Below, piece after piece: positions 14,834-18,955 of a stretch of 64,000 nt of DNA. The stretch comes from Halostella salina (lineage in GTDB: Archaea; Halobacteriota; Halobacteria; Halobacteriales; Natronoarchaeaceae). Position numbers and translations under genes: made by a program. The notes beneath the pieces are model-generated. The model saw nothing but the letters and a program-made list of their open reading frames with translations. It searched no databases and had not been told where the DNA came from. The stretch is taken from NCBI RefSeq assembly GCF_003675855.1, contig NZ_RCIH01000003.1, positions 124,001-188,000 on the forward strand. The letters run 5' to 3'. Every line of letters starts with the position of its first letter. The stretch's first letter is position 1.

Positions 14834-16090
14834 TTAGCTGTCGGCGGTTGGCCGATAGCCGTCACCGTTCAACATCCCACCATGTATACGCACGTCTACT
14901 GGTGCGTCTGCGCTCCCCGACGTGGGCGAGGAACGCAGGCTGTGGTGTCGCTTCCGCATATACCGTAACGCGACGTTTTTCGCGCCGTTGTAATCCGCGT
15001 TGATTTCGTACCCACACTTCAGGCACTGGAACTGCTCGCCGTCCCGGTTGTCTTCGTGAGTAAACCCACAATCAGTCCGAGAACACCGCTGACTCGTATG
15101 GGCAGGCTCGACCTGCTCTACAGCCACCCCTCGATCTGGAGCTTTGTACTCAACGTACTCGACAAGACGGCGGAACGCCCACACGTGATGCCAGTCAGCG
15201 TGAGGGAGTCGCTCTCGAATATCCGTCAACTCCTCGAATACGATCACGTCGCAGTCGTAGTCAACCGCTTCCTCAACGATCTCGTTGGCGACCGTGTGGA
15301 TGTACTGTTTCCGCCATGCTCGCTCTCGCTTCCCGAGTCGAAGGACGGCGTTGTGTGCGGCTTGTGTGCCACGCTGTTGCATTTCTGCTCGGCGGTTCTC
15401 GAACTCCCGGATCCAGTGGTCGTACTCATCACCACTCCAGAACGTCCCTGTGGTGGCGACGGCGAGACTGTTCACACCGAGGTCGATCCCGAGGACTGTC
15501 TGGTGCCCGGGATCGGCCGAACCCTCGATCTCAACAGCCTCTCCATCTTCGTCTATCTTCCGCGTTTTGACGTGGAAGTAGAATTCGTTGCTGGCTTGGT
15601 CGTACTGGAGTGTACTCGTCCGAAACTCGTACTCCTCGGACAAGACGTACTCTTCGTACGGCGTTGGACTATCCGCTGGCAACTCGAAATCACACTCGAT
15701 ACGCCCGTTCACCGTTGACAGTGAGATTTTGTTCCGATAGAACGTCGCACTGCGCTTATCGTAGACCATACTCCAGGAGGTGAACTCCGGCTTGTTCGTC
15801 CGCTTGCCGTTTTTCCAGCGGTCAACACCACTATCGACAGCGTGAACGGCACGCCGGATGGCTTCTTGGACAAGGTTCGCCGTGAGTTCAGTCTCCTCGC
15901 GCAGCCGGTCGTACAACGCATCCCGGGCTGTCACGTTCGAGGTGACGCAGTCTTCGTAGTCGGTGTTGTCCCAGCAGTAGTCACTCGCCTCGTTCGCACA
16001 GTACAGGAATTGCTCGGCGGTTTCGTGGAGGTCATCACGGTACTCGTCGGGAACAACGAGTTTGACCGGCGCGGTACGCCTGACCGCCAT
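14834..16090 (-). CDS. tnpB: TnpB RNA-guided nuclease (OrfB of IS200/IS605)
   Basis: A full-length 418-residue TnpB. The RuvC-like catalytic residues are all present: Asp203 in LGIDLGVNSLA, Glu286 in VFEELTD and Asp366 in INADYNGAKN. A four-Cys zinc finger (Cys336, 341, 356, 359) lies between the second and third. The N-terminal helical DNA/RNA-binding region is intact. TnpB enzymes cut DNA at a site next to a short motif, guided by RNA from the element's right end, and thereby help retain the element. Nothing suggests decay, so it may be active. The upstream sequence on this strand has an AT-rich TTATTAAG about 35 nt before the ATG that could serve as a promoter. Confidence 0.95.
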   Translation of the reverse strand: MAVRRTAPVKLVVPDEYRDDLHETAEQFLYCANEASDYCWDNTDYEDCVTSNVTARDALYDRLREETELTANLVQEAIRRAVHAVDSGVDRWKNGKRTNKPEFTSWSMVYDKRSATFYRNKISLSTVNGRIECDFELPADSPTPYEEYVLSEEYEFRTSTLQYDQASNEFYFHVKTRKIDEDGEAVEIEGSADPGHQTVLGIDLGVNSLAVATTGTFWSGDEYDHWIREFENRRAEMQQRGTQAAHNAVLRLGKRERAWRKQYIHTVANEIVEEAVDYDCDVIVFEELTDIRERLPHADWHHVWAFRRLVEYVEYKAPDRGVAVEQVEPAHTSQRCSRTDCGFTHEDNRDGEQFQCLKCGYEINADYNGAKNVALRYMRKRHHSLRSSPTSGSADAPVDVRIHGGMLNGDGYRPTADS

Positions 16091-16286: not shown

Positions 16287-18551
16287 CTACTGGAACGTCC
16301 GGCCGACGGTCTCCTCGCCTTCGACCTCGGTGGTGTCGAACTGCTCTTCGATCTCCTCGTACTGCTCGCGGACGTCCTCGGTGACGCTGGGGGTCACCTC
16401 GTCCAGCGCAGTCTCGAAGTGCTCGCGGCGCACACGGACGTTCCCGACGCTCTCGCCGATCTCGTCGGGGTCGACGGAGTCGATGAACTCGCGGCTGGCG
16501 GCCATCGACGCCTCGCGGACGAGCGCCTCGATGTCCGCGCCGACGTAGCCATCGGTCTCGCCGGCGAGCCAGTCCAGGTCGACGTCGTCGGCGACGGGCT
16601 TGTTCCGGGTGTGGACCTCGAAGATCGCGCGGCGCGCGTCCTCGTCGGGGACGGGCACGTGGACGTGCCGGTCCAGCCGACCGGGCCGCAGCAGCGCGTT
16701 GTCGATGAGGTCCGGGCGGTTCGTGGTCGCGATGACGACCACGTCCTCCAGCTCCTCCAGCCCGTCGAGTTCGGTCAGCAGCTGCGAGACGACGCGCTCG
16801 CTGACCTCGCTGCCGCCGCCGGTGCCGCGGCCGCGTTCGCCCGCGATGGAGTCGATCTCGTCGAAGAACACCACGGTCGGGGCGTTCTCCCGGGCCTTGC
16901 TGAACACCTCGCGGACGCCCTTCTCGGACTCGCCGACGAACTTGTTGAGCAGCTCCGGTCCCTTGATCGAGATGAAGTTGCTCTGGGACTCGTTGGCGAC
17001 GGCTTTCGCCATCAGCGTCTTGCCGGTGCCGGGCGGGCCGTACATCAGTACACCCTTCGCGGCCTCCATGTCCATCTGCTCGAACACCTCGGGGTAGTCG
17101 AGCGGCCACTGGACGGTCTCCCGGAGGCGCTCCTTGGTGTCCTCCAGGCCGCCGACCTGGTCCCAGGACACGTCGGGCACCTCGACGAACACCTCGCGGA
17201 GTGCGGAGGGGTCGATCCCCTTTAGCGCCTCCTTCAGGTCGCGCTCGGTGACCTGCAGCCGGTCGAGCACGTCGGCGTCGATCTCCTCGGATTCGAGGTC
17301 GAGTTCGGGCCGGATGCGCCGGAGCGCGTTCATCGCGCCCTCCTTGGTCAGGCTCTCCAGGTCCGCGCCGACGAACCCGTGCGTGTTCTCGGCGTACCGG
17401 TCCAGGTCGATCCCATCGGCCAGGGGCATCCCGCGGGTGTGCACCTGCAGGATCTCCTTGCGGCCCTCCTTGTCGGGGACGCCGATCTCGATCTCGCGGT
17501 CGAAGCGACCGCCGCGCCGGAGCGCGGGGTCGATGGCGTCGACACGGTTGGTCGCGCCGATGACGATGATCTCGCCGCGCTCGTCCAGCCCGTCCATCAG
17601 CGAGAGGAGCTGCGCCACGACGCGGCGCTCCACGTCACCGCCGGCCTCCTCGCGCTTCGGGGCGATGGAGTCCAGCTCGTCGATGAACACGATCGCGGGG
17701 GCGTTCTCCTCGGCCTCCTCGAACACCTCGCGGAGCTGCTCCTCGCTCTCGCCGTAGTACTTCGACATGATCTCCGGCCCGGAGATGGTGTCGAAGTGGG
17801 CGTCGATCTCGTTGGCGACCGCCTTGGCCATCAGCGTCTTGCCGGTGCCGGGCGGCCCGTGCAGGAGGACGCCCTTCGGCGGCTCGATGCCGAGCTGCTG
17901 GAACAGCTCGGGGTGGCGCATCGGCAACTCGATCATCTCGCGGACCTGCTCCAGCTCGTCGTCGAGACCGCCGATGTCCTCGTAGGTGACGTTCGGCGTG
18001 TCGCCGCCGCTCGTGTCACCGGGCGCGCCGGCGATCTGCTCGGCGGGCTTCTCGCTGATCTGGATCTCGGTCGAGTCGGTGATGACGACCGTGCCGCTCG
18101 GCTCGGTCGAGGCGATCTTCAGCGGGACGGACTGCCCGCTGCTGGACATCGGGCCAAAGGAGAGCGGGAACGGCACCGTCTGGCCCTCGGTAACGGCCTG
18201 GCCGGAGAGCTTGTCGCGCACCAGCGGGCCGATGTTCCCGCGGATGCGGAGGTTCTGCGGCAGGGCGACGGTGACGCTGGTCGCCGGCTTCACGTCGGCC
18301 GTCTCGACGGTGACGTTGTCGTCGATGCCGACGTTTGCCTCCTGTCGCAGGCGGCCGTCGATCCGGATGATCCCGCGGCCCTCGTCCTCGGGGTAGCCGG
18401 GCCAGACGCGCGCGACGGCGCGGTCCTCGCCCTCCCCGATGAGGATGTAGTCGCCGTTCTCCAGGTCCAGTTCCCCCATCGTGGCGCGGTCGATCGCCGC
18501 CAGTCCGCGGCCCGCGTCTTTCTGTTTGAGTGGTTTTACGGTGAGCTTCAT
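16287..18551 (-). CDS. cdc48: Cdc48/VCP-type AAA+ ATPase
   Basis: A 754-residue Cdc48/p97 homologue. The N-terminal double-psi barrel ([20 protein letters not shown]) and four-stranded beta domain cover about residues 1-185. The D1 and D2 AAA modules each have a Walker A GPPGTGKT and Walker B ([13 protein letters not shown] and [13 protein letters not shown]). The C-terminal tail is acidic and ends GRTFQ. It unfolds proteins and feeds the archaeal proteasome. Its ATG overlaps the stop of the small Hsp20-like gene, and the shared promoter carries an HSR1-like palindrome, so heat-shock control is likely. The two-gene arrangement recalls the Archaeoglobus heat-shock operon. Confidence 0.97.
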
Positions 18552-18799
18552 GCTTCGTCCTCCAGTTCGATGGTGAGGACGCCGTTTTTCATAAACACTT
18601 CCGCGTCCTCGCCGGGCAGGTCGATCTCGATCTGTTCCTCGTCCCCGTCGGTTCCGGTCACGACGATGGCGGTGTCGGCCAGCACGTCGACGTCGGCGTC
18701 GGCCACCGGTCCGAGGTCGGCCGCGATCACGACGCCGTCGTCGTAGCGGTACTCGCGGACGACCCGTTCGTCGCCGTCGGCCAGTTGATTGAGGTTCAT
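18548..18799 (-). CDS. Hsp20-like small protein (DUF7127-like), first gene of cdc48 operon
   Basis: An 83-residue protein resembling the core of alpha-crystallin/Hsp20 chaperones: the C-terminal half contains [39 protein letters not shown] and TIELE, where the Asn-Gly-Val-Leu turn and following strand are typical of Hsp20. It lacks the N-terminal arm and the C-terminal IXI motif, so it is a minimal form. The gene overlaps cdc48 by four bases. The HSR1-type operator starts 4 nt upstream of its ATG. A role handing clients to Cdc48 is inference. The DUF number is from memory. Confidence 0.8.
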
Positions 18800-18802
18800 G
18801 TA

Positions 18803-18835
18803 ACTAACCCAAAGTTAGTCGTACTACTATTTAAA
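18803..18835 (-). promoter_or_regulatory. HSR1-like heat-shock operator and TATA box
   Basis: Reading the minus strand: TTTAAATA (18828-18835), then ACTAACTTTGGGTTAGT (18803-18819). The palindrome matches CTAAC-N5-GTTAG, the motif reported for HSR1 of Archaeoglobus fulgidus, with one extra matched base on each side. The TATA centre is 32 nt from the ATG, placing transcription start inside the palindrome, the expected position of a repressor that blocks preinitiation. Confidence 0.8.
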
Positions 18836-18955
18836 CCTTTCTCCAGCTCCCCCTCGAAAGGGCGGTGTTTCGGAGGTTCGGCTGAATTGCGGTTCACACG
18901 AACATTGTGCCGGTCGCGAATTGAACTTTATGGTCGCCCCCGTCCAAGGTCCGGT

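Follow-up and report, generated by a model that had tools for sequence, protein, structure and literature searches.

The closest described counterpart of the locus reported here is the HSR1 operon of Archaeoglobus fulgidus (Rohlin et al. 2005), which we take to be AF1298-AF1297-AF1296. The palindrome assigned to HSR1 is CTAAC-N5-GTTAG (reviewed in PMC9133787). A homologous regulator, Phr, has a site composed of TTTA, TGGTAA and AAAA blocks over 29 bp (PMC6316755), which overlaps the transcription start (PMC9133787, PMC6316755); Phr acts as a repressor at the start region and departs on heating, and an equivalent was proposed for HSR1 (PMC9133787). Both proteins share arCOG01684 with the redox regulator SurR (PMC9426492, PMC5852551), and this cluster is found in most euryarchaea (PMC5852551). 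With regard to haloarchaea, Lu et al. (2008) reported that BRE and TATA box alone are enough for the heat response of hsp5 (according to PMC9133787). Moreover, Halobacterium cdc48b rises 5.6-fold upon heat shock (PMC1971269) and Haloferax tfb2 is heat-induced up to 8-fold (PMC2121645). No description of a CTAAC-N5-GTTAG operator or its regulon in haloarchaea was found in the literature searched, outside of which lay most subscription journals.

The window, i.e. the whole stretch of 64,000 nucleotides of Halostella salina DNA that was analysed, harbors a sole exact copy of this palindrome, reading ACTAACCCAAAGTTAGT on the plus strand and ACTAACTTTGGGTTAGT on the minus strand. It is positioned in front of a two-gene operon with the following features:

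16287 to 18551, minus strand: cdc48, encoding a 754 aa AAA+ ATPase with an N domain and two AAA modules (NCBIfam TIGR01243, 1019 bits; PF02359, PF02933 and two PF00004 matches)
18548 to 18799, minus strand: first gene of the operon, encoding an 83 aa DUF7127 protein (PF23444; Pfam E 7.7e-18), a predicted divergent alpha-crystallin-domain protein
18803 to 18819, minus strand: candidate palindromic operator ACTAAC-TTTGG-GTTAGT (core CTAAC-N5-GTTAG at 18804-18818), assigned by exact match and cross-genome conservation
18828 to 18835, minus strand: TATA box TTTAAATA, with 9 nt between it and the CTAAC arm that follows, assigned by spacing and an information-content peak
18836 to 18841, minus strand: putative BRE, GAAAGG on this strand, adjoining the TATA box and inferred from purine-rich conserved columns of a 61-site profile

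The minus-strand promoter thus reads GAAAGG-TTTAAATA-GTAGTACG-ACTAACTTTGGGTTAGT-TAC-ATG, in which 3 nt separate the palindrome from the start codon of the DUF7127 gene, and the TATA box position places the expected transcription start inside the palindrome or at its end. The stop of the DUF7127 gene is overlapped by the cdc48 start by 4 nt, and directly downstream of cdc48 lies an open reading frame (14834-16090, minus strand) that resembles TnpB of the IS605 OrfB type, named from its translation only. While the DUF7127 protein exceeds the cut-off of the DUF7127 model alone and is not matched by the Pfam Hsp20 (HSP20/ACD) model, small heat-shock proteins occupy the first seven places among the PDB matches of its family profile (4rzk, E 1.1e-5). 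In addition, its AlphaFold2 model (pLDDT 81) is nearly all beta, and the top Foldseek matches of this model are again small heat-shock proteins (best E 7.8e-4, TM 0.63), with p23 ranking lower. These profile and structure comparisons indicate that DUF7127 represents a trimmed, divergent version of the alpha-crystallin fold of small heat-shock proteins. Hence, several elements of the original prediction, which had been made from the DNA alone, hold up: the 17-base palindrome at 18803-18819 is an exact CTAAC-N5-GTTAG with one additional matched base per side (ACTAAC-N5-GTTAGT), the first reading frame (18799-18548, minus strand) does overlap cdc48 (18551-16287, minus strand) by 4 nt, its product is Hsp20-like by profile and structure comparison, and the motif along with its A. 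fulgidus HSR1 source agrees with the review.

Regarded within the window only, the palindrome is mildly surprising and not decisive, because 21 of 100 window shuffles contain one or more matches when a single mismatch is tolerated. It is more than a product of chance because it is conserved across genomes. Genome-wide scans were carried out as pattern searches with the reversed pattern as control. In the host genome (3.74 Mb), two exact sites stand against none for the control, while the 18 one-mismatch sites (24 in the control) are mostly situated inside genes or devoid of promoter geometry and were treated as background. A search for the DUF7127 family over 59 relatives yielded 30 loci, and nearly all true orthologs feature the palindrome or a CTTAC variant at the equivalent place; two loci (L032, L040), which represent other paralogs within long frames, were excluded from the failures. 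The scan of named genomes returned 80 cdc48 loci, of which 73 were left after dropping hsp5-type paralogs. The motif is exact at 50 of these, deviates by one mismatch at 11 and by two at 9, and accordingly is present within one mismatch at 61 of the 73 loci. Close relatives are among these, with Halorubrum represented many times and Haloferax several times, so that not all loci are independent. When the regions upstream of the 73 loci were scanned for every 5-bp inverted repeat with a gap of 0-10, CTAAC-N5-GTTAG ranked first (50 loci), while Markov shuffles gave a mean of 0.007 loci with the motif. Since the exact sites carry 31 different spacers, the arms have been kept while the spacer drifts. 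Of 65 loci, 61 have 9 nt between TATA box and arm, and the 61-site profile shows an information-content peak at the TATA columns, which had not been used for locus selection. In a sample of 146 genomes drawn evenly over the class, the combined pattern TTWAWATA-N9-NTWAC-N5-GTTAG was detected in 98 genomes with 102 hits, compared to none for the reversed control.

Haloarchaea possess a second kind of cdc48 operon, in which a cdc48 paralog comes after a classical hsp20 gene, hsp5. One such operon, hsp5-cdc48d on pNRC200, was considered as a possible target and discarded, as it lacks the palindrome; so do seven related cdc48 loci. Together they serve as a built-in negative control. This agrees with the reported sufficiency of BRE and TATA box for hsp5 (PMC9133787).

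An HSR1 gene is not encoded within the window. The host genome does, however, contain an HSR1/Phr ortholog at G000:C1:447687-448373, on another contig and unlinked to the cdc48 operon. HSR1 as query finds its best match at G000:C1:447693, with 59% identity over residues 5-89 (E 6e-29), followed at a distance by the next match (2.8e-6), and the reverse comparison of the host regulator with Archaeoglobus HSR1 gives 34% identity over nearly the full length. Toward Pyrococcus Phr (2P4W), identity is about 55% over the winged helix-turn-helix (wHTH). The Phr query, whose sequence is identical to PDB 2P4W at 202 of 202 positions, has one strong match in 12 of 13 related genomes, with 50-56% identity over the wHTH in most. 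The host regulator comprises HTH_5 (PF01022, E 2e-26) and PF24270 HTH_Cmi2_C. The NCBIfam model Phr_regulator (NF053602) is the best of all its NCBIfam matches with 95 bits (SurR 32), which lies below the model cut-off of 320 bits, and on this basis the protein is classified as a homolog rather than an equivalog of Phr. A match to the A1 profile reaches E 2.5e-109, though the underlying alignment includes the host protein itself. Throughout the phylum, 148 genomes were searched and the regulator was matched in all 124 of good quality, in some lineages by the wHTH half only. The recognition helix reads SPKAVIEHL in the host, APKAVLEHL in HSR1 and GQKAVLEHL in Phr, and the segment PK-A/V-V/I-x-x-HL is kept. 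Unlike that of HSR1, the own promoter of the host regulator features no recognizable palindrome. In six haloarchaeal genomes of family f5, a one-mismatch palindrome, CTAACCAYACGTTAA, abuts the start codon of the regulator gene and is likely an autoregulatory site, while several other haloarchaeal families display only a degenerate palindrome at this place. Literature under the name Cmi2 contained no haloarchaeal paper, and cmi4 appears as a knockout target without a stated function. CsmR (PMC13286277) was set aside as a different winged-helix protein with the motif TATCA-N4-TGATA.

Outside the haloarchaea, 20 phylum loci were sampled around the best regulator match, and the palindrome (zero or one mismatch) precedes the regulator gene at 17 of them. 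At most of the sampled loci cdc48 follows directly after the regulator, and hsp20 is present at many. The order regulator, cdc48, hsp20 with the palindrome ahead of the regulator occurs at nine f21 loci as well as at others. The f21 genome G162 is presumably that of A. fulgidus DSM 4304 and its regulator HSR1; its HSR1-cdc48-hsp20 operon carries CTAACATAAAGTTAG. Sequence comparison thus ties the haloarchaeal cdc48 operon to HSR1-cdc48-hsp20 by shared ancestry. Because regulator-cdc48-hsp20 operons with the palindrome are found in other lineages of the phylum, the gene order in haloarchaea seems to be the derived one: the regulator would have left the operon and a divergent small heat-shock gene would have come to stand before cdc48, while the operator would have stayed with cdc48. 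At three non-haloarchaeal loci (L158-L160), the regulator matches over the wHTH half only and differs in its C-terminal half, and the CTAAC-N5-GTTAG palindrome (0-2 mismatches) precedes its own gene. Three further loci (L154, L156, L140) show tandem overlapping palindromes 14 bases apart before the regulator-cdc48 operon, either one exact and one mismatched or both with one mismatch, which suggests cooperative double sites.

Ahead of a TFB gene, at a distance of 60 nt, lies the second exact site of the host (locus L002, 1501-1515; G000:C3:286559-286573). Several families likewise have sites in front of TFB genes, with a TATA-N9 spacing that is equal by eye, and all four additional TATA-N9-palindrome hits examined belong to TFB genes (G302, G219, G048, G240). 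Their distribution is patchy, with a loss in G004 and sites falling on several TFB paralogs. A single orthologous "heat-shock TFB" marked by the site is not supported by the tree, which requires at least six label changes instead of one clade. Three genomes without DUF7127 have the site immediately next to a classical hsp20 gene. In Haloferax denitrificans, H. mucosum and H. prahovense (L294, L307, L309, position 1501), CTAACCCGAGGTAAG, of the form CTAAC-N5-GTAAG, is found about 40 nt before a gene for an HtrA-like serine protease, and in Halosimplex carlsbadense (L300, position 1501) an exact palindrome follows a TATA box before a gene for the proteasome alpha-subunit; the names of both products derive from reading translations, not from a family search. 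Besides the cdc48 operon, the site is thus associated with genes for proteostasis or for TFB, namely hsp20, TFB, HtrA-like protease and proteasome alpha.

The best reading of the conserved motif, its geometry, the regulator orthology, the shared operon ancestry and the TFB-linked site is an HSR1-type operator whose regulon appears rewired to include general transcription factors. Probably, 18803-18819 constitutes the operator of a haloarchaeal winged-helix repressor of the HSR1/Phr family, which is released by heat and co-controls a TFB gene; binding by the host HSR1 ortholog, repression and heat release are the steps that we infer. In unstressed cells, a regulator dimer would occupy CTAAC-N5-GTTAG between TATA box and start codon and thereby block recruitment of RNA polymerase or the start itself. 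Upon heat shock the repressor would leave, so that the small heat-shock-like DUF7127 protein and Cdc48 are made, which may hold and unfold damaged proteins. Because the HSR1-family repressor would also control a TFB gene in the host genome, heat should raise this general transcription factor, too, which in turn could spread the response to palindrome-free promoters such as that of hsp5. Whether these elements form a two-tier cascade, in which the repressor governs cdc48-DUF7127 and at least one TFB gene while the released TFB serves hsp5-like promoters, is in our estimation evenly balanced, and the same holds for the accompanying view that the link to TFB arose repeatedly, each time on another paralog. 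The reported induction of cdc48b and tfb2 is consistent with the operator reading, provided that both are site-bearing orthologs. Speaking against it, heat control in haloarchaea need not use a repressor, since hsp5 needs BRE and TATA box only (Lu et al. 2008, according to PMC9133787), the host regulator's own promoter has no recognizable palindrome, and the TFB-linked sites are patchy. The original prediction had proposed a scan upstream of orthologous cdc48 operons, which revealed a conserved motif (50 of 73 loci; 98 of 146 genomes), and a search for an HSR1 homologue, which located the ortholog elsewhere in the host genome as best match of HSR1. Its suggestion of a circuit conserved in Halobacteria was therefore sustained for motif, cdc48 operon and HSR1 ortholog; the site at the regulator's own promoter is absent, and the TFB targets had not been foreseen.

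Three other explanations deserve consideration. A chance palindrome, or a preference of the promoter core that involves no regulator, would be in line with the frequency of one-mismatch matches in shuffled windows (21%) and with the host one-mismatch sites resembling background (18 versus 24). The comparative data refute this notion, which we regard as barely credible: 102 hits oppose none in the control, 50 of 73 loci oppose 0.007 expected, the arms remain constant among 31 spacers, and the palindrome is missing from the paralogous hsp5-cdc48 operons. The site could also be an activator element through which the regulator aids the TFB/TBP complex instead of blocking it, and the fixed 9-nt TATA spacing might stem from contacts made with the initiation complex; yet sites that, like this one, follow the TATA box and cover the expected start are classically those of repressors, and the related Phr represses from a start-overlapping site (PMC9133787, PMC6316755), which makes activation very improbable.

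Somewhat less remote, albeit still improbable, is that a genuine operator has been taken over by another winged-helix or ArsR protein responding to redox, metal or salt stress. The membership of SurR in the same arCOG as Phr and HSR1 lends itself to this explanation, as does the multitude of haloarchaeal ArsR/TrmB-type proteins, of which a first look gave as many as 97 candidates in a single genome. It is countered by the presence of the regulator in 124 of 124 good-quality genomes with a conserved recognition helix, by the palindrome that accompanies the regulator gene both outside the haloarchaea and in f5 haloarchaea, and by the nature of the targets, which are protein quality control genes and TFBs.

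Compared with described systems, the proposed HSR1-type operator is closest to the A. fulgidus HSR1 regulon, with which it shares the palindrome CTAAC-N5-GTTAG just downstream of the TATA box, an orthologous regulator, and cdc48 together with a small heat-shock protein as targets. It differs in that the haloarchaeal regulator resides outside the operon, that cdc48 is preceded by its partner DUF7127 instead of being followed by a classical hsp20, that many genomes seem to have weak autoregulation or to have lost it, and that TFB genes are extra candidate targets. HSR1 and its motif were already known; what the haloarchaeal system adds is a conserved promoter geometry, a regulator encoded apart from the operon, DUF7127 as the partner and TFB genes as putative targets. 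The Phr regulon of Pyrococcus furiosus and Thermococcus likewise involves a homologous ArsR-type wHTH (about 55% identity over the wHTH), hsp20 and AAA+ ATPase targets and a site overlapping the start, whereas its 29-bp block site contrasts with CTAAC-N5-GTTAG and its C-terminal half differs from the haloarchaeal protein with PF24270 HTH_Cmi2_C. The TFB-directed response of hsp5 (Lu et al. 2008) shares haloarchaea, heat-shock genes and TFB factors, but requires BRE and TATA box without a palindrome, while the palindromic operator is found ahead of the cdc48 operon and of some TFB genes and could take effect at an earlier step than the hsp5 response. Taken together, this comparison provides a candidate sensor-repressor in every good-quality genome tested, along with its operator and a fixed promoter geometry, and places the operator of this candidate before both cdc48 and TFB genes. 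Moreover, the operator sequence was kept phylum-wide through changes in operon structure, in the partner gene and in lifestyle, from hyperthermophile to halophile.
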